DNA of 64,000 bases from Alphaproteobacteria bacterium. Lineage in GTDB: Bacteria > Pseudomonadota > Alphaproteobacteria > Puniceispirillales > UBA1172. The position numbers and the translations under genes are program-made. The stretch is taken from assembly GCA_016778985.1 (NCBI GenBank), contig JADHOM010000002.1, positions 1 to 64,000 on the forward strand, read 5' to 3'. Shown here one piece after another: positions 23,387 to 31,271 of the stretch; position 1 is the first letter of the stretch; each line of letters begins with the position of its first letter. A model generated the notes under the pieces. It did not search any database. It saw only the letters and a list, made by a program, of their open reading frames with translations, and was not told the DNA's origin.

Positions 23387-24286
23387 ATGACGATTTTTAA
23401 TTTAGGCTCTATTAATATTGATCACATCTATGGATTGCCGCATCTCGTTGTCGCTGGTGAGACGCTGGCGGCGAGCAGATACGAGTCCGCGCTAGGCGGC
23501 AAAGGCGCCAATCAATCCATCGCCATTGCACGTGCTGGAGGGGATGTTTTTCATGCTGGCATGATCCATCATGGCGATGATCATTGGCTCACCCCCATGG
23601 TCAAAGCAGGGGTTAATATAAATGCAGTTCTAAAGAGTGATATCGCAACCGGACACGCCATTGTTGCGGTTGATGATGACAGCCCAAATAAAGGTGAGAA
23701 TCAGATTATTCTTGCCCCATTATGCAATCAGTCCCTGCCCGCGACATTAACTGATGATTTCCTTAAACATGCCACATCTAGTGATTGGGCATTGGCACAA
23801 AATGAAACTAATCTGACTGCTGATTTCTTAACCGCGGCAAAGGCAAAGGGGCTTCATATCTGTTATAGTGCTGCCCCTTTTGTCGTAGATATCACCCTAT
23901 CTTTACTGCCAGAGGTTGATCTGCTTATCGTTAATGATATTGAGGCAGATGCCCTATGCCAAGCCACTGGCAAAACCAAGTCGGCGCTCAATATTCCGCA
24001 TTTAATTGTGACACAAGGCGCCAATGGCGCCGAATATTATGGTCAGGATGGCAGCTTCCACATCCCTGCCCCTGTTGTTAAAGCGGTTGATACAACTGGT
24101 GCCGGCGATACCTATCTTGGCTATGTTCTGGCGCAACTAGATAAAGGCAAGCCGATGCGCGAGGCGATGCATGTTGCCGCTGCTGCCGCCGCTATTCAGG
24201 TGACACGACATGGCGCTAGCAGCGCTATTCCAGATATGGCCGAAACCCGCGAAAGTATGAATACAGATCATGTGATGGGACGCTAA
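23387..24286 (+). CDS. PfkB-family sugar kinase (ribokinase-like)
   Basis: The 299-residue ribokinase-fold kinase has NLGSINIDHIY at the N-terminus, substrate loop ALGGKGANQSIAIARAGG near residue 37, and the catalytic anion-hole motif DTTGAGDTYLGY near 245. It likely phosphorylates ribose set free by the nucleoside hydrolase coded 4 bp downstream; other PfkB substrates (nucleosides, ketosugars) are possible. First gene of an operon that runs to about 31470. Confidence 0.88.
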   Translation: MTIFNLGSINIDHIYGLPHLVVAGETLAASRYESALGGKGANQSIAIARAGGDVFHAGMIHHGDDHWLTPMVKAGVNINAVLKSDIATGHAIVAVDDDSPNKGENQIILAPLCNQSLPATLTDDFLKHATSSDWALAQNETNLTADFLTAAKAKGLHICYSAAPFVVDITLSLLPEVDLLIVNDIEADALCQATGKTKSALNIPHLIVTQGANGAEYYGQDGSFHIPAPVVKAVDTTGAGDTYLGYVLAQLDKGKPMREAMHVAAAAAAIQVTRHGASSAIPDMAETRESMNTDHVMGR

Positions 24287-24290
24287 AATA

Positions 24291-25256
24291 ATGTCAAAGC
24301 AGAAACTGATTATAGACACCGATCCTGGCATTGATGATGCTATGGCTATCCATTATGCTTTTGCTCATGAGGCGCTTGATCTGATCGGGTTGACAACCAT
24401 TTTCGGGAATGTCTTTGTCGAACAGGCGACGCGAAACGCATTATGGCTGACCGATCAAGCCAGCCGCCCTATCCCTGTCAGCCAAGGTGCTGCCACACCT
24501 CTTGCCATCACCCCAAATGCGCCATCGCATTATGTTCATGGCGATGAAGGATTTGGCGATCTGCCCGCGATGATAACAACGCGACTTGCTGATCCCAGAC
24601 CTGCGCATATCTTTCTCGCCGATACCATTAGGGCATATCCGGGTGAAGTGATTCTCTGTCCGATTGGCCCACTCACCAATATCGCGCGGCTATTGGATCA
24701 TGATCCAGCCATTGCCACGCTTGTCAAAAAACTTGTCATCATGGGAGGCGCGGTTGATTGCGCCGGTAATGTGTCCGCATTTGCTGAGGCTAATATATGG
24801 AATGATCCGCATGCCGCGGAAAGGGTATTTGCGGCAGATTGGGATATGGAATTAATCGGGCTAGATGTGACAAGCCATATATCTTGTGACGCTGATGATT
24901 TTTTGTCCATTGCCAAAGAATCGCCAGATATTGGCGGTTTTCTTGAACGGATTTCCCAGTTTTACATCAATTTTTATCACAGCATTATCGGCCGCCATGT
25001 CTGCTTGATGCATGACCCATCCGCCGTTATCAGCATCACTGATGAGACAGCGTTTGAATATGAAAATATTCCTTTAGAGGTTGTATGTTCGGGTGAACGC
25101 ATTGGCGCGACAATCCGCTCACAACAAAAAAGACGTCCGGTTAGAGTGGCAAAAGCCGTTAACGCTAAGCAGGTGCAGGAAATTTTTCTGGACATATGTA
25201 AGCAATCCGACAAAATAAAAAAACAATCAGATAAAATACAAGCAAGTAATGCATAA
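24291..25256 (+). CDS. Inosine/uridine-preferring nucleoside hydrolase
   Basis: Hydrolyses ribonucleosides to base and ribose. The Ca2+-binding Asp cluster DTDPGIDDAMAI lies at residues 8-19, and the family motifs GPLTNIARLL, MGGAVDCAGN and MHDPSAV are all present. No signal peptide, so it acts after import. The last 20 codons contain a duplicated KQSDKI element (21-bp repeat at 25200-25241), a charged tail beyond the conserved fold. 4 bp after the sugar kinase gene. Confidence 0.94.
   Translation: MSKQKLIIDTDPGIDDAMAIHYAFAHEALDLIGLTTIFGNVFVEQATRNALWLTDQASRPIPVSQGAATPLAITPNAPSHYVHGDEGFGDLPAMITTRLADPRPAHIFLADTIRAYPGEVILCPIGPLTNIARLLDHDPAIATLVKKLVIMGGAVDCAGNVSAFAEANIWNDPHAAERVFAADWDMELIGLDVTSHISCDADDFLSIAKESPDIGGFLERISQFYINFYHSIIGRHVCLMHDPSAVISITDETAFEYENIPLEVVCSGERIGATIRSQQKRRPVRVAKAVNAKQVQEIFLDICKQSDKIKKQSDKIQASNA
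25200..25241. repeat. 21-bp tandem duplication in a gene 3' end
   Basis: Two diverged 21-bp copies, coding KQSDKIK and KQSDKIQ at the end of the nucleoside hydrolase. In frame. Confidence 0.7.
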
Positions 25257-25306: not shown

Positions 25307-26140
25307 ATGGAAGTTAAAACCGTTGATTATCAGTCACCACAAGCGCCAAGCGATTTAGCCTTATCGCTCAAGAACACAGGCTTTGCTGTATTGGTTAATC
25401 ACCCGATTACCCCCGACCGTATTGAGACGATTTATGCGGCATGGGGCGCGTTTTTTGCTGATGAGGCAAAGCATGACTGGTTGCGTGACCCCAACACCCA
25501 AGATGGGTTTTTCCCATTCCAGTCTGAAAATGCGAAAGGCGCTATGGCGAAAGACCTGAAAGAGTTTTTTCATGTCTACCCATGGGGTCGGGTGCCGCCA
25601 CAATTGGAGGCGATTACTCGCCAATTATATAAAGATTTATCGACATTAGGGATTGAGCTTTTGGGCTGGCTAGATCAAGCCATGCCTGATCATTTGCGTG
25701 AAGCGCTAAGCCAACCATTAGCCGAAATGATGCGCGACAGCCAACAAAGCCTGTTGCGTATCTTACATTATCCGGCGCTTACCGAAGCCCCTGAACCTAA
25801 TGCTATTCGGGCGGCGGCGCATGAAGATATCAATCTGATCACATTGCTATTAGCCGGATCAAAGCCGGGGCTAGAGGCCATGGATACCGACGGCAACTGG
25901 CATAAAGTGCCATGTGATCCGGGAATGATCACGATTAATAATGGCGATATGCTAACCCTAGCGACTGATGGATATTATCCGTCTACAACCCATCGGGTGA
26001 TTAATCCAGATGCAGAAACTAATGCGCCGCGTTTCTCTATGCCGATGTTTTTGCATCCACGCCCAGAAGTCGATTTGAAGCCGCAATTTACAGCTGATAT
26101 GTTCCTGCAACAACGTCTTAAAGAAATCGGACTAAAGTAA
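25307..26140 (+). CDS. 2OG-Fe(II) oxygenase, isopenicillin-N-synthase-like family
   Basis: The 277-residue cytosolic protein has a full jelly-roll active site: iron ligands H172 and D174 (AHEDINLITLLL) and H229 (STTHRVINP), with the 2OG-binding R242 and S244 (PRFSMP). The N-terminal DIOX_N-like part is present. It should hydroxylate or demethylate a small molecule. It sits between a nucleoside hydrolase and a nucleoside-type ABC importer. Fungal relatives of this fold act on thymine and pyrimidine deoxynucleosides, so a modified base or nucleoside substrate is a reasonable inference, not shown by sequence. Confidence 0.88.
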   Translation: MEVKTVDYQSPQAPSDLALSLKNTGFAVLVNHPITPDRIETIYAAWGAFFADEAKHDWLRDPNTQDGFFPFQSENAKGAMAKDLKEFFHVYPWGRVPPQLEAITRQLYKDLSTLGIELLGWLDQAMPDHLREALSQPLAEMMRDSQQSLLRILHYPALTEAPEPNAIRAAAHEDINLITLLLAGSKPGLEAMDTDGNWHKVPCDPGMITINNGDMLTLATDGYYPSTTHRVINPDAETNAPRFSMPMFLHPRPEVDLKPQFTADMFLQQRLKEIGLK

Positions 26141-26168: not shown

Positions 26169-27182
26169 ATGAAAACATCACTATTAAAAATTATTGTATC
26201 GGCAATAAGCGTCTTATTTGTCTGGAGCAGCATGAGCGTGCAAGCCGCAGACATTAAGCCTGCTGTGATTTATGATATGGGCGGCAAGTTTGACAAATCC
26301 TTCAATGAAGGCGTTTGGAATGGTGTCAAAAAATTCACCGAAGAAACTGGCATTGAAGTGATGGAGTTTGAAGTTACCAACGAAACCCAGAGAGAACAAG
26401 CGATGCGCCGGATGGTTGACCGAGGCGCCACGGTTGTTCTCGGCGTTGGCTTTGCACAAGCTGATGCGATTGCGGCGGTATCAGCAGAAAATCCAGATGT
26501 GCAGTTCTCCATCATTGATGTGTTTTGGCTAGATCAGCCGAACCTACGCCAATATGCGTTTAAGGAACATGAGGGAAGCTATCTCGTTGGTGTTGCCGCC
26601 GCCCATGCTAGCCAGACAGGTAAGGTCGGCTTTGTTGGCGGAATGGATATTTCACTTATTCGGAAGTTTGCATGTGGTTATGTTGGCGGCGTCAAGTCGG
26701 TTAATCCTAATGCTGAAGTCTATCAAAATATGACCGGCACAACGCCAGCCGCTTGGAATGATCCAGCCAAAGGGGCTGAGCTGACGATGAGCCAGATTGA
26801 TCGTGGCGCCGATGTCATTTATCAGGCCGCTGGCGGCACCGGTATTGGCGTTATTCAAGCTGCATCAGATGCTGGTAAGCTAGCCATTGGCGTTGATTCA
26901 AATCAGAACGGCCTTGCCCCAGGATCAGTATTGACATCAATGCTCAAGCGCGTTGATGTTGCCGCTTATGAGACGTTTATGGATGCAAAGAACGGCAGCT
27001 TCTCAGCTGGCGTTAAAGTCCTTGGCGTGGCAGAAGGCGGTGTTGACTGGGCATTAGATAATAATAATGCGAGCTTAGTTAATGCTGATATGAAGGCGGC
27101 GGTCGAACAAGCTCGTCAGGATATCGTATCAGGCAAGATTTCTGTTCATAACTATGAGAGCGATTCTGCCTGCCCTTACTAA
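26169..27182 (+). CDS. BMP-family ABC transporter substrate-binding protein (nucleoside type)
   Basis: Periplasmic receptor, 337 residues, with a cleavable signal peptide (hydrophobic 6-21, likely cut after SVQA near 26). The family core starts AVIYDMGGKFDKSFNEGVWNG and continues with GFVGGMDI and IYQAAGGTGIGVIQAA, as in PnrA-like nucleoside receptors. A GGAGGAAATA ribosome site fits the ATG. Its ATPase and permeases follow directly. Compared with the first BMP protein (5129-6250) it is clearly a different branch with a normal signal peptide. Confidence 0.93.
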   Translation: MKTSLLKIIVSAISVLFVWSSMSVQAADIKPAVIYDMGGKFDKSFNEGVWNGVKKFTEETGIEVMEFEVTNETQREQAMRRMVDRGATVVLGVGFAQADAIAAVSAENPDVQFSIIDVFWLDQPNLRQYAFKEHEGSYLVGVAAAHASQTGKVGFVGGMDISLIRKFACGYVGGVKSVNPNAEVYQNMTGTTPAAWNDPAKGAELTMSQIDRGADVIYQAAGGTGIGVIQAASDAGKLAIGVDSNQNGLAPGSVLTSMLKRVDVAAYETFMDAKNGSFSAGVKVLGVAEGGVDWALDNNNASLVNADMKAAVEQARQDIVSGKISVHNYESDSACPY

Positions 27183-27201: not shown

Positions 27202-28758
27202 ATGACAGGAACACCATCATTGGCGAAAAGCAGGCCTGACTTGCCTTTCGCCATTACCATGTCTGGCATTTGTAAACGCTTTGGATCAGTGCAAGCGAAT
27301 GATGCCATTGATCTCAATATCGCATCAGGTGATATCCACGGCATTGTTGGTGAAAATGGCGCTGGCAAATCGACGCTAGTCTCTATCCTATATGGCTTTT
27401 ATACAGCGGATAGTGGCCAGATCAAAATCTCAGGCACACCATATACCAATAATAGCCCCGCCGATTCTATTGCTGCCGGCATTGGCATGGTGCATCAGCA
27501 TTTTATGCTAGTACCAAACTTCACGGTTCTCGAAAATATTATTCTGGGGCATGAAAATGATCGAAACTTGACGCGAAGCATGGAGCAAGCGCGTCATATG
27601 CTCATGAACTTGGCTAATCAATATGGCCTAGATGTTAATCTTGATGCAGAGGTTGGTGACTTGCCAGTCAGCCTGCAGCAAAGAGTTGAGATACTGAAAG
27701 CCTTATATCGAAATGCGAAAATCCTTATACTGGATGAGCCTACGGGCGTCTTAACGCCGCAAGAAACGGAGCAATTATTTGATATTCTTCGCTCGCTCAA
27801 ACAGCAAGGAGTAACGATTTTACTCATCACCCATAAATTGCGTGAGATTATGGCGGTAACCGATTGTGTATCTGTTATGCGTGGTGGCCGCATGATCGCG
27901 CATCTGGACACCGCTAAAACAACACCTGAAGAATTGGCAGAATTAATGGTTGGACGTCCGGTGCAGGTGCAAAAGCAATGGCATCAGACGCAAACAGGTG
28001 CGGTTGTTGTTAAGGTTGAAAATATTCATTTATCCAATGCCGATAACCAAAACCTGTTATCAGACATCAGCTTTACCGTGCATGCAGGAGAAATAGTCGG
28101 GGTCGCTGGAGTGGCTGGAAATGGCCAATCTGAATTGCTCAATATACTGGCCGGGATAACCGCGCCAAGCGCTGGAGCTATAACCTATCATGGCCACTGC
28201 ATTACCGCCGAAGCCCCCGCTAATGCCCAAACTATCAAAGCGCTAGGCGTGGCGCATGTGCCAGAGGATCGCCATGCGTCTGGTATTGTTTTGCCATTTA
28301 CCGCCGCCGAAAATGCTGCTCTTGGCTATGAAGATAATGTGTCGCATGGCTATAAAAATATGTTCATATCGCCCCAACAGCTGAATGCAAGATGCGCTAA
28401 TCTGATGCAAGAGTTTGATGTCAGACCGCCTCACCCTGACTTAAAATCCAGCCTCTTTTCAGGTGGCAATCAGCAAAAGCTAGTATTGGCGAGAGAAATG
28501 TCAGCTTCGCCATCTGTGCTGCTGGTCGGCCAGCCGACACGCGGCGTTGATATTGGCGCGATTGAGTTTATTCATCAGCAGCTGATCAATATGCGTGATA
28601 GTGGCTGTGCTATTATCCTTGTCTCGGTTGAGCTGGATGAAATTATGAGCCTGTCTGACCGTATCATGGTCATGAATAATGGTCAGATCATGGGCATGGT
28701 GAATAGATCAGACGCCAATGTCAAAGATATCGGTTTGCTTATGGCAGGGGTGCAATAA
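27202..28758 (+). CDS. ABC transporter ATP-binding protein (duplicated ATPase, nucleoside type)
   Basis: The 518-residue fused ATPase has Walker A GENGAGKST, a Q-loop region MVHQHFMLVPNFTV, signature LPVSLQQR and Walker B ILILDEPT in the first half. The second half has GVAGNGQSE, signature LFSGGNQQKLV and a divergent Walker B VLLVGQPTRGVD. It drives nucleoside uptake with the two permeases downstream; the stop shares a base with the next start (TAATG). Confidence 0.94.
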   Translation: MTGTPSLAKSRPDLPFAITMSGICKRFGSVQANDAIDLNIASGDIHGIVGENGAGKSTLVSILYGFYTADSGQIKISGTPYTNNSPADSIAAGIGMVHQHFMLVPNFTVLENIILGHENDRNLTRSMEQARHMLMNLANQYGLDVNLDAEVGDLPVSLQQRVEILKALYRNAKILILDEPTGVLTPQETEQLFDILRSLKQQGVTILLITHKLREIMAVTDCVSVMRGGRMIAHLDTAKTTPEELAELMVGRPVQVQKQWHQTQTGAVVVKVENIHLSNADNQNLLSDISFTVHAGEIVGVAGVAGNGQSELLNILAGITAPSAGAITYHGHCITAEAPANAQTIKALGVAHVPEDRHASGIVLPFTAAENAALGYEDNVSHGYKNMFISPQQLNARCANLMQEFDVRPPHPDLKSSLFSGGNQQKLVLAREMSASPSVLLVGQPTRGVDIGAIEFIHQQLINMRDSGCAIILVSVELDEIMSLSDRIMVMNNGQIMGMVNRSDANVKDIGLLMAGVQ

Positions 28759-29903
28759 TGCGCAGGCCTTTACCAGCATGGGTCGATATCAGCATCATGC
28801 CGCTGATTAATATTGCCGCCGCATTTGTGGTTGCTGGCATTATTATAGCCTTGATTGGTGAGAACCCTTTGACTGCCCTCAGCATCATGGTCAAAGGCGC
28901 GTTTGTCTATAAAGGCGCGCTGGGATATACGCTCTATTACACCACCAATTTTATTTTTACCGGCCTTGCCGTCGCCGTCGCCTTTCATGCCATGCTGTTT
29001 AATATTGGCGGCGAAGGGCAAGCCATGATCGGCGGCTTAGGCATTGGCTTTGTAGTGCTTAGTCTTGATCCAATATTGCCGCCATTGCTGGTCGTCTTAC
29101 TGGCTATTCCTGTTGCTGCCATATTTGGTGCGTTATGGGGCATCATTCCTGGCTGGCTGCAGGCTAGACGCGGCAGTCATATTGTCATCACGACGATCAT
29201 GTTCAACTTTATTGCCTCATCTATCATGGTCTGGCTATTAGCCGGAATGTTAATGGCGCCCGGGCAAATGTCGCCTGAAACACGGCATTTTGCCGAGGGC
29301 GTGAACTTGGCGCAGATACATCACATTGCTAATGCCCTGGGTTGGCCGATGGCGCGATCACCTCTCAACCTGTCCTTTGGCATTGCTATCATTGCATTAG
29401 TCGCGGTATGGGTGCTGATCTGGCGGACGCGGCTTGGTTATATTATCCGCGCTACTGGCCATAGCGAAAAAGCGGTGATTTACGCTGGCCATGATCCAGC
29501 GCGTATTATCATAATCACGATGGCTATTTCTGGCGGGTTGGCTGGATTGATGGCCTTGAATGAGATTTTGGGCGTACAAGAACGGGTTATCCTTAACTTC
29601 ACCTCAGGCTATGGCTTTACAGGTATTGCGGTCGCCTTGATGGGGCGAAATCATCCTTTTGGTATTCTCCTTGCCAGTCTTTTATTCGGCGCGCTTTATC
29701 AAGGTGGTGCCGAGCTAGATTTTGAGTTTCAGACCATTACCAGAGAAATGGTATTGATGATACAAGGCCTGATTATTCTGTTTTCAGGAGCTCTGGCATT
29801 AATGTTTGTACCAACAGCCGAACGTATTTACGGGCTATTTTCAGCTCATGAAACGTCAGCATCTGATCCATCCAAGTTAGGGAAGGATCGCCAAGATGGC
29901 TGA
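28758..29903 (+). CDS. ABC transporter permease (nucleoside type, BPD_transp_2)
   Basis: The 381-residue membrane subunit has about nine helices. MLFNIGGEGQAMIGGLG is the family loop, and RRGSHIVITTIMFNFIAS lies further on. It overlaps the second permease by 8 bp. A polar C-terminal tail (residues 350-381) projects beyond the last helix. Confidence 0.93.
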   Translation: MRRPLPAWVDISIMPLINIAAAFVVAGIIIALIGENPLTALSIMVKGAFVYKGALGYTLYYTTNFIFTGLAVAVAFHAMLFNIGGEGQAMIGGLGIGFVVLSLDPILPPLLVVLLAIPVAAIFGALWGIIPGWLQARRGSHIVITTIMFNFIASSIMVWLLAGMLMAPGQMSPETRHFAEGVNLAQIHHIANALGWPMARSPLNLSFGIAIIALVAVWVLIWRTRLGYIIRATGHSEKAVIYAGHDPARIIIITMAISGGLAGLMALNEILGVQERVILNFTSGYGFTGIAVALMGRNHPFGILLASLLFGALYQGGAELDFEFQTITREMVLMIQGLIILFSGALALMFVPTAERIYGLFSAHETSASDPSKLGKDRQDG

Positions 29904-30870
29904 GCTGTGGTTGCAATTTGTTCTGACCATTGATGCAACTTTGCGGGTTGCGACGCCGCTTATTCTCTGTGCCATGGCTGGCATTTTTTCAGAACGCTCA
30001 GGCATTATTGATATCTCGCTCGAAGGCAAGATGCTGTTAAGCGCATTTACCGCCGCCACAGTCGCCGCATTATATGGCTCACCTTGGCTAGGCTTATTCT
30101 GTGCGGTGATTGTCTCTATGGTGTTCAGCCTCATTCACGGCTTTGCCTGTATTACCCATCGCGGTAATCAGGTGATCTCTGGCCTCGCCATAAATATCCT
30201 AGCGTCAGGTTTGACAGTGACCATCGGTATCGCCATTTTCGCGCAAGGTGGGCAGACGCCTTTCCTGATGTCAGGGCAACGATTTAGCGCTATCAGCTTA
30301 CCGTTTGCTGAGGCTGCCAAAAATATTCCGATCATCGGAACAATTTATGCTGAGGTGATATCAGGCCATAACCTGCTTGTTTGGGTGGCATTATTATCGG
30401 TCATACTGACAGCACATGTCTTGTTCCACACATCCTTTGGGCTTCGCCTGCGGGCGGTTGGGGAAAAACCCGAAGCTGTAGATACGGCTGGCATCAGTGT
30501 GACGCTAATGCGCTATCAAGCGGTGCTAATCGCCGGATTATTATGTGGCATTGCAGGCGCTTATCTGTCGATTGCGCATGGTGCTGGCTTTGGTCGTGAA
30601 ATGACGGCAGGAAAGGGTTATATTGCGCTTGCCGCCATGATTTTTGGGCATTGGCGCCCGATACCAGCCTTGATGGCGTGTTTGATGTTTGGCTTTCTTG
30701 ATGCGATTGCGGCACGCCTGCAAGGCGTTGAACTTCCATTTTTTGGCCCCATGCCTACCGATTTGATTTTGGTCTTACCCTATGTATTGACGGTTATCTT
30801 ACTTGCTGGTTTTATTGGCAGAGCTGTGCCGCCCAAAGCGATTGGCCAGCCTTATATTAAGGAAAGATAG
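29896..30870 (+). CDS. ABC transporter permease (nucleoside type, BPD_transp_2)
   Basis: Second permease, 324 residues. ERSGIIDISLEGKMLLSAF is the characteristic loop after the first helix, and GMTAGKGYI-type sequence (here EMTAGKGYIALAAMIFG) lies near the C-terminus. It starts inside the end of the upstream permease gene and is followed after 2 bp by cytidine deaminase, which links uptake directly to nucleoside conversion. Confidence 0.93.
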   Translation: MAELWLQFVLTIDATLRVATPLILCAMAGIFSERSGIIDISLEGKMLLSAFTAATVAALYGSPWLGLFCAVIVSMVFSLIHGFACITHRGNQVISGLAINILASGLTVTIGIAIFAQGGQTPFLMSGQRFSAISLPFAEAAKNIPIIGTIYAEVISGHNLLVWVALLSVILTAHVLFHTSFGLRLRAVGEKPEAVDTAGISVTLMRYQAVLIAGLLCGIAGAYLSIAHGAGFGREMTAGKGYIALAAMIFGHWRPIPALMACLMFGFLDAIAARLQGVELPFFGPMPTDLILVLPYVLTVILLAGFIGRAVPPKAIGQPYIKER

Positions 30871-30872
30871 CC

Positions 30873-31271
30873 ATGACCGAAGATACGCTGATCAAGGCCG
30901 CGATTGCAGCCATGCCAAAGGCTTATGCCCCCTATAGTCATTTTTTGGTGGGCGCGGCGATTTGTGATGAGAATGGCAACATCCATACAGGGGTTAATGT
31001 TGAAAACGCTGCCTATCCGCAAGGCTCATGCGCCGAAGCGGGTGCTATTGCGGCCATGATTATGGCTGGCGGCAGGCGCATATATCAAATTGCCATAGCC
31101 GGCCGTGGGGTGAACCTTTGCACGCCTTGTGGGGGGTGCCGTCAGCGCATCAGAGAGTTTGCTAATCCGGATACCCCGATTATTATCGCTGATGACAGCG
31201 GATTGCGGCAACGCTTCACATTAGATGAATTGCTGCCGCATAGCTTTGGCCCCGATCATTTGGATAAATAG
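30873..31271 (+). CDS. cdd: Cytidine deaminase
   Basis: Deaminates cytidine and deoxycytidine. The 132-residue protein is the short homotetrameric type. Zinc ligands C53, C86 and C89 and catalytic E55 fall at the same numbers as in the Bacillus enzyme (SCAEAG and TPCGGCRQ), and NVENAAYP gives the ribose-binding Asn and Glu. Residue 56 is Ala where the classic tetrameric enzymes have Arg, so charge balance around the zinc thiolates may differ. Last main gene of the nucleoside operon, 2 bp after the permease. Confidence 0.94.
   Translation: MTEDTLIKAAIAAMPKAYAPYSHFLVGAAICDENGNIHTGVNVENAAYPQGSCAEAGAIAAMIMAGGRRIYQIAIAGRGVNLCTPCGGCRQRIREFANPDTPIIIADDSGLRQRFTLDELLPHSFGPDHLDK

Follow-up and report, generated by a model that had tools for sequence, protein, structure and literature searches.

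A 3ON7-family Fe(II)/2-oxoglutarate oxygenase recurrently linked to nucleoside uptake and salvage genes in Alphaproteobacteria and Gammaproteobacteria

Introduction

The fungal thymidine 2'-hydroxylase is the pyrimidine-deoxynucleoside 2'-dioxygenase (EC 1.14.11.3). In the pathway of thymine-7-hydroxylase (T7H), thymidine is converted to the thymine ribonucleoside, which is then hydrolysed (PMC4787775). T7H itself acts on the free base, and its substrate residues are Asn87, Glu122, Arg190, Tyr217, Phe292 and Asn294 (PMC4787775). Other 2-oxoglutarate (2OG) oxygenases act at the 2' position of free nucleosides: FJS, a metagenome-derived bacterial enzyme, demethylates free 2'-O-methyl nucleosides, as does PHYHD1, and a nucleoside hydrolase that accepts 2'-modified nucleosides, RK9NH, has also been described (PMC12709175). 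FJS and PHYHD1 belong to the PhyH family (PF05721) and were discovered through their activity and not through an operon. The nucleotide halogenases AdaV and CtNTH, of the IPNS-like fold group, act on C2' of deoxynucleotides; in CtNTH, Phe272 and His274, two residues apart, lie by the C2' of dGMP that is set at the iron, and trace GMP is formed from dGMP (PMC11186838).

A pyrimidine-use cluster of the SAR116 group was described in a 2025 study, in which a transporter, a uridine ribohydrolase, cytidine deaminase (CDA), uracil phosphoribosyltransferase (Upp) and thymidine kinase (TK) are collocated; Prochlorococcus exudes thymidine, and SAR116 was inferred to use pyrimidines via this cluster (PMC11698098). 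The paper mentions no oxygenase, the word itself being absent from its text.

Here we describe an Fe(II)/2OG oxygenase, OXY, encoded in a SAR116 genome within a window of 64,000 nucleotides, by which we mean the whole stretch of DNA analysed. OXY belongs to the family of 3ON7 (Shewanella oneidensis SO_2589), a structural-genomics entry with a crystal structure since 2010, whose function was listed as undefined in a 2023 review (PMC10467617); the literature on SO_2589/3ON7 that we found consists of mentions in structure lists, and no published role for OXY was found. The other parts of the operon, the action of 2OG oxygenases on free nucleosides and the SAR116 pyrimidine cluster (PMC11698098) are already known. 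What is new is the repeated, family-wide tie of the 3ON7 family to nucleoside uptake and salvage, from which a testable prediction follows.

Results

An oxygenase within a predicted nucleoside uptake and cleavage operon

By its domains (PF14226 and PF03171) and its metal and 2OG motifs, OXY is an IPNS-type Fe(II)/2OG oxygenase of predicted activity. The Pfam search of the protein matched PF03171 (2OG-FeII_Oxy) with E 1.3e-17 and PF14226 (DIOX_N) with E 5e-9, the domain scores of 64.4 bits (cut-off 23) and 37.3 bits (cut-off 27.3) both passing. The preliminary description of the locus had read a full active site from H172, D174, H229, R242 and S244, which is borne out by the core relatives, the first four residues being invariant (95 of 95) and S244 kept in 92 of the 95. 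An NCBIfam search gave no family name for OXY. The closest named record is a 97% identical protein in a SAR116 cluster MAG, and the genome bearing the window OXY belongs to the SAR116 group; a scan of genome contigs returned only four close OXY loci.

The gene lies in one co-directional run that comprises a PfkB kinase, a nucleoside hydrolase, OXY, a BMP protein, an ABC ATPase, two permeases and CDA (Table 1). Domain matches confirm the earlier placement of OXY between the nucleoside hydrolase and a BMP-type importer, with CDA ending the run; the genes then named were correct, but the ribokinase-like gene that opens the run had been omitted. The intergenic gaps are at most 50 bp, the last junctions abut or overlap, and the co-directional BMP protein, ABC ATPase, two permeases and hydrolase make up a predicted nucleoside uptake and cleavage operon. 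The best NCBIfam matches of the kinase (RK) and the hydrolase (NH), ribokinase TIGR02152 and RihC respectively, fall under their cut-offs; the nearest solved structures to NH are the ribonucleoside hydrolases 6ZK1 and 4KPO, and the BMP protein matches Treponema TmpC (2FQW, E 9e-39). RK adjoins NH in linked loci. A promoter and terminator scan of the run gave a promoter signal not above that of shuffled sequence.

Table 1. Positions of the oxygenase gene, its active-site codons and the other genes of the run in the window.
Feature	Position	Strand	Basis
PfkB-family ribokinase-like sugar kinase (RK), first gene of run	23387..24286	+	PF00294 E 3e-38
Nucleoside hydrolase (NH; IU_nuc_hydro)	24291..25256	+	PF01156 E 3.7e-79
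Fe(II)/2OG oxygenase of 3ON7 family (OXY)	25307..26140	+	277 aa ORF
Metal-binding H-x-D codons, H172-E-D174	25820..25828	+	sequence
Second metal-binding His codon, H229	25991..25993	+	sequence
2OG-binding R-x-S codons, R242-F-S244	26030..26038	+	sequence
BMP/PnrA-type nucleoside-binding protein	26169..27182	+	PF02608 E 3e-62
ABC transporter ATP-binding protein, two ABC domains	27202..28758	+	PF00005, two stretches
ABC permease 1	28758..29903	+	PF02653 (BPD_transp_2)
ABC permease 2	29896..30870	+	PF02653 (BPD_transp_2)
Cytidine deaminase (CDA), last gene of run	30873..31271	+	TIGR01354 149 bits, cut-off 113.65

Relationship to known oxygenases

An AlphaFold2 model of OXY, built with 75 aligned homologues, has a mean pLDDT of 89.1. 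Its best structural match is 3ON7 (Z 35.5), followed by T7H entries (Z 31.0–31.6) and 3OOX (Z 30.4), with other superfamily members close behind (Z ≤29.5). SO_2589 resembles OXY over its full length (∼48–50% identity, phmmer E 1e-87), and by this similarity and the predicted fold the window OXY belongs to the 3ON7 family. The next relative is the family of Caulobacter CC_0200 (3OOX; profile E 1e-72, 37% identical in the structure alignment), whose function is likewise undefined and which shares with OXY the N-terminal segments E-x-A-K-G and D-x-K-E. More distant relatives (L079–L082, L105 and L106) form a separate clade.

T7H of Neurospora crassa (5C3P–5C3S) is the first characterised enzyme in the OXY profile search (E 1.5e-34), is also the nearest characterised enzyme in fold and has its metal and 2OG sites in common with OXY. 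Its substrate residues were placed on OXY by means of the profile alignment, allowing for a chain numbering shifted by two. Arg190 (R151) and Phe292 (F248) are kept, but Asn87, Glu122, Tyr217 and Asn294 are changed to Q65, H89, I175 and H250. The structure prediction and pocket comparison that had been suggested earlier yield a shared fold and catalytic sites together with four differing substrate residues out of six; with only the arginine and the phenylalanine kept, OXY is related to T7H, but membership is not supported.

Two further groups were considered and rejected. OXY gave no match to PF05721 at E 0.001 in the Pfam search, which places it in a different family from the PhyH enzymes FJS and PHYHD1; the genome of the window does encode three PhyH proteins, whose best solved matches are PhyH enzymes other than PHYHD1. 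The earlier remark that no described bacterial equivalent linked to such an operon was known is no longer fully accurate as regards bacterial equivalents, FJS being a bacterial oxygenase that acts on free 2'-O-methyl nucleosides (PMC12709175), although not one of the family to which OXY belongs. Membership among the nucleotide halogenases is contradicted by the metal motif, H172-E-D174 in OXY and H-x-G/A in AdaV and CtNTH, and these enzymes take nucleotide substrates. The spacing of Phe272 and His274 in CtNTH equals that of F248-x-H250 in OXY, a likeness that we treat as a lead only.

Conserved neighbourhood in Alphaproteobacteria

The neighbouring genes of OXY loci from more than 100 genomes were read. 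The window gene order was found, as far as the contigs reach, in 24 of the 27 loci of the SAR116 order, the exceptions (L084, L107 and L108) all coming from one family. The order kinase-NH-OXY-BMP-ATPase-permease-permease recurs in L070, L073, L074 and L089, four loci that come from three further families of Alphaproteobacteria; their OXY is 50–55% identical to that of the window and forms a clade apart from SAR116 in the OXY tree, with unlinked alphaproteobacterial copies nearer to that clade. The neighbourhood search that had been advised across marine Alphaproteobacteria thus finds the linkage, and its recurrence across the SAR116 order and in three other families argues that the arrangement in the window is not due to chance.

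Variants of the locus also occur. In L051, L052 and L055 the BMP importer is divergent (∼30% identity to that of the window), yet NH-OXY is kept, as is the kinase wherever the contig extends to it; the importer having been exchanged, the tie is to the enzymes and not merely to one transporter. Another alphaproteobacterium (L071) has nupC-OXY, and in L105, whose OXY relative is of the more distant clade (∼38% identical), homologues of the kinase (33%) and of NH (34%) lie a few genes off on the other strand.

Other nucleoside genes in Gammaproteobacteria, and orphan copies

The family is common: OXY occurs in 87 of the 109 sampled genomes of one gammaproteobacterial family (f193), in 37 of 369 sampled Gammaproteobacteria and in many SAR116 genomes. 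In 40 f193 genomes it follows nupC (PF07662, TIGR00804), nearly always preceded by a uridine kinase gene (udk, TIGR00235), which gives udk-nupC-OXY. Elsewhere udk is followed by a BMP importer and then OXY (L117), or the order is kinase-NH-OXY (L128). In all, no fewer than four distinct arrangements place OXY with nucleoside transporters or enzymes that are unrelated to one another.

Many copies are orphans, including those of Vibrio and other Gammaproteobacteria, and most of these (for example L092–L104 except L094) have varied neighbours among which no nucleoside genes were recognised. Relatives lacking the linkage had been named as a finding that would count against a nucleoside role; they are indeed numerous, yet the linkage recurs. 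E74, A76, K77, R151, R168, I175, F248 and H250 do not differ between linked and orphan copies, apart from at most one exception each, and this identity of the predicted active-site residues suggests a single substrate across the family.

A tRNA-dihydrouridine synthase gene (DusA) lies directly upstream of OXY in five gammaproteobacterial loci (L111, L120, L129, L131 and, partial, L122), named in L111 and assigned by sequence cluster in the others, and QueF is downstream of OXY in L120. DusA is also found near OXY in L124, L130 and L133.

Pyrimidine partners and the deo route

In other genera the SAR116 operon is followed, in the same direction, by TK (eight loci), Upp lies near it on the opposite strand and orotate phosphoribosyltransferase (PyrE) upstream of it; in L070 PreT-PreA (dihydropyrimidine dehydrogenase) is upstream. 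CDA, Udk, TK, Upp, PyrE and PreTA near OXY point to pyrimidines.

Among the 30 genomes in which a linked OXY locus was read, neither deoC (TIGR00126) nor a PYNP_C match over the cut-off was found (0 of 30 for each; G690 has a sub-threshold fragment), and it is on this PYNP_C search that the predicted absence of a full thymidine phosphorylase rests. In f193, deoC was found in none of the 40 nupC-OXY genomes versus 41 of 47 genomes with orphan OXY, in five of which (G446, G727, G729, G649 and G745) it adjoins nupC. This looks as if f193 nupC were paired with the deo route in some genomes and with udk and OXY in others. However, linkage changes only about two times on the tree, so that the exclusion represents about one event and not 40 independent ones, and in the gammaproteobacterial sample the two genes co-occur (deoC in 22 of 37 OXY genomes versus 47 of 369 overall). 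A simple replacement of deoC by OXY was rejected on these grounds; OXY does not just stand in for the deo route, and the f193 exclusion is kept as weak support. Beyond the linked set, the SAR116 genomes tested also gave no deoC over the cut-off, even where OXY is absent. One SAR116-order genome (G022, genus g9) lacks OXY, unlike its congener G019; of the SAR116 genomes tested, it alone gave a PYNP_C match over the cut-off.

Discussion

Substrate and proposed reaction

Our results provide insight into the probable substrate of the 3ON7 family. BMP importers, CNT transporters, nucleoside hydrolases and uridine kinase belong to families with no relationship to one another and have only their nucleoside substrates in common, and the mixed linkage of OXY with all of them, the strongest evidence in this analysis, makes a nucleoside the likely substrate. 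With considerable confidence we take this to be a free nucleoside, and it is probably, though less securely, a pyrimidine nucleoside. The preliminary description had proposed a link to nucleoside uptake and cleavage and, as substrate, modified nucleosides such as methylated ones; the link is conserved and extends to other nucleoside genes in Gammaproteobacteria, but a modified substrate is a hypothesis, and the gene content agrees no less well with a 2'-deoxynucleoside that carries no modification.

In udk-nupC-OXY there is no base-releasing neighbour, and in SAR116 both NH and a ribokinase-like kinase are present, which favours a reaction on the sugar of the free nucleoside. From the gene context and the relatives we tentatively propose that OXY may 2'-hydroxylate pyrimidine 2'-deoxynucleosides (deoxyuridine, thymidine and deoxycytidine) to ribonucleosides. 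In SAR116, the BMP importer would take up nucleosides, CDA would convert (deoxy)cytidine to (deoxy)uridine, and OXY, acting on the sugar before the sugar-specific enzymes, would give uridine or 5-methyluridine; NH, expected to need the ribose 2'-OH, would then release base and ribose, and RK would convert ribose to ribose 5-phosphate. In the gammaproteobacterial arrangement, import would fall to NupC, and uridine kinase would take the OXY product. It is conceivable, if a little more speculative still, that bacteria possess in this way an oxygen-dependent route from imported 2'-deoxynucleosides to ribonucleosides by 3ON7-family 2'-hydroxylation, which would bypass the deo route of thymidine phosphorylase and deoxyribose-phosphate aldolase.

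The proposed reaction is that of the fungal hydroxylase converting thymidine to thymine ribonucleoside, which also precedes a ribonucleoside hydrolase (PMC4787775); the likeness of the two enzymes would lie in reaction and pathway place. Searches of open-access papers for a bacterial enzyme that 2'-hydroxylates deoxynucleosides retrieved none. Oxidation at C2' of deoxynucleotides has a precedent in the fold group of OXY in CtNTH (PMC11186838). 2'-Hydroxylation would explain the presence of TK, why linked genomes have neither deoC nor deoA, and the resemblance to the order of steps in fungi. It does not account for DusA beside OXY in several Gammaproteobacteria, and the many orphan-OXY genomes that do have deoC count against it as a deo substitute. 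Most SAR116-linked genomes also encode TK, able to use thymidine directly, and the need for a step before NH is assumed, since some nucleoside hydrolases accept 2'-modified nucleosides.

Alternative reactions

Removal of the methyl group, as formaldehyde, from free 2'-O-methyl nucleosides of RNA turnover would likewise supply ribonucleosides to NH or udk, and it fits the operon order equally. Such a reaction has precedent in the 2OG oxygenases FJS and PHYHD1 (PMC12709175), O-demethylation exists in the fold group of OXY (thebaine 6-O-demethylase), and the reaction suits orphan OXY in deoC-bearing genomes better than 2'-hydroxylation does, as well as the RNA-modification neighbours DusA and QueF. 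However, the known 2'-O-demethylases belong to PF05721, which OXY does not carry, none of the neighbours examined was recognised as handling formaldehyde, and the reaction would predict neither the nearby TK nor genomes devoid of deoC and deoA. We therefore rank 2'-O-demethylation, which fits nearly as well, below 2'-hydroxylation and consider it rather unlikely.

Oxidation of the base in the manner of T7H, with hydrolysis freeing thymine and OXY oxidizing its methyl group towards 5-carboxyuracil, would accord with T7H being the nearest characterised relative (Z up to 31.6) and with the correspondence of F248 to the thymine-stacking Phe292 and of R151 to Arg190. It is nevertheless improbable: the two kept residues are both generic, the neighbours examined included no recognised isoorotate decarboxylase, and udk-nupC-OXY has no enzyme that would free the base. 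Little probability is also given to the oxidation of another RNA-derived nucleoside (e.g. dihydrouridine) or to action on RNA itself, which the DusA and QueF neighbours would suit; the DusA loci all fall within a single part of the tree, and local synteny may be their cause, the importers and hydrolases elsewhere favour free nucleosides, and nothing found is specific for dihydrouridine. An incidental neighbourhood, with a substrate unrelated to nucleosides, agrees with the orphan copies but is similarly improbable given the separate nucleoside-gene arrangements and the eight residues common to linked and orphan proteins.

Implications

The gene contexts leave a small set of obtainable nucleosides as candidate substrates, which makes the 3ON7 family directly testable. 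If OXY does convert deoxynucleosides to ribonucleosides, marine bacteria without the deo route would gain an unrecognised use of DNA-derived pyrimidines, an example being the thymidine exuded by Prochlorococcus (PMC11698098).

Further observations on OXY loci

OXY follows purM-purN in two gammaproteobacterial loci (L121, where the genes are named, and L150, assigned by cluster) and adjoins purL in L091. A small 2Fe-2S ferredoxin gene lies 3' of OXY in three related alphaproteobacteria (L072, L075 and L077; PF00111 was tested in L072). Two OXY copies per genome are found in L124, in tandem, and in G825 (L111 and L112); the tandem copies of L124 (7540–8370 and the preceding ORF) are ∼42% and ∼49% identical to the OXY of the window.
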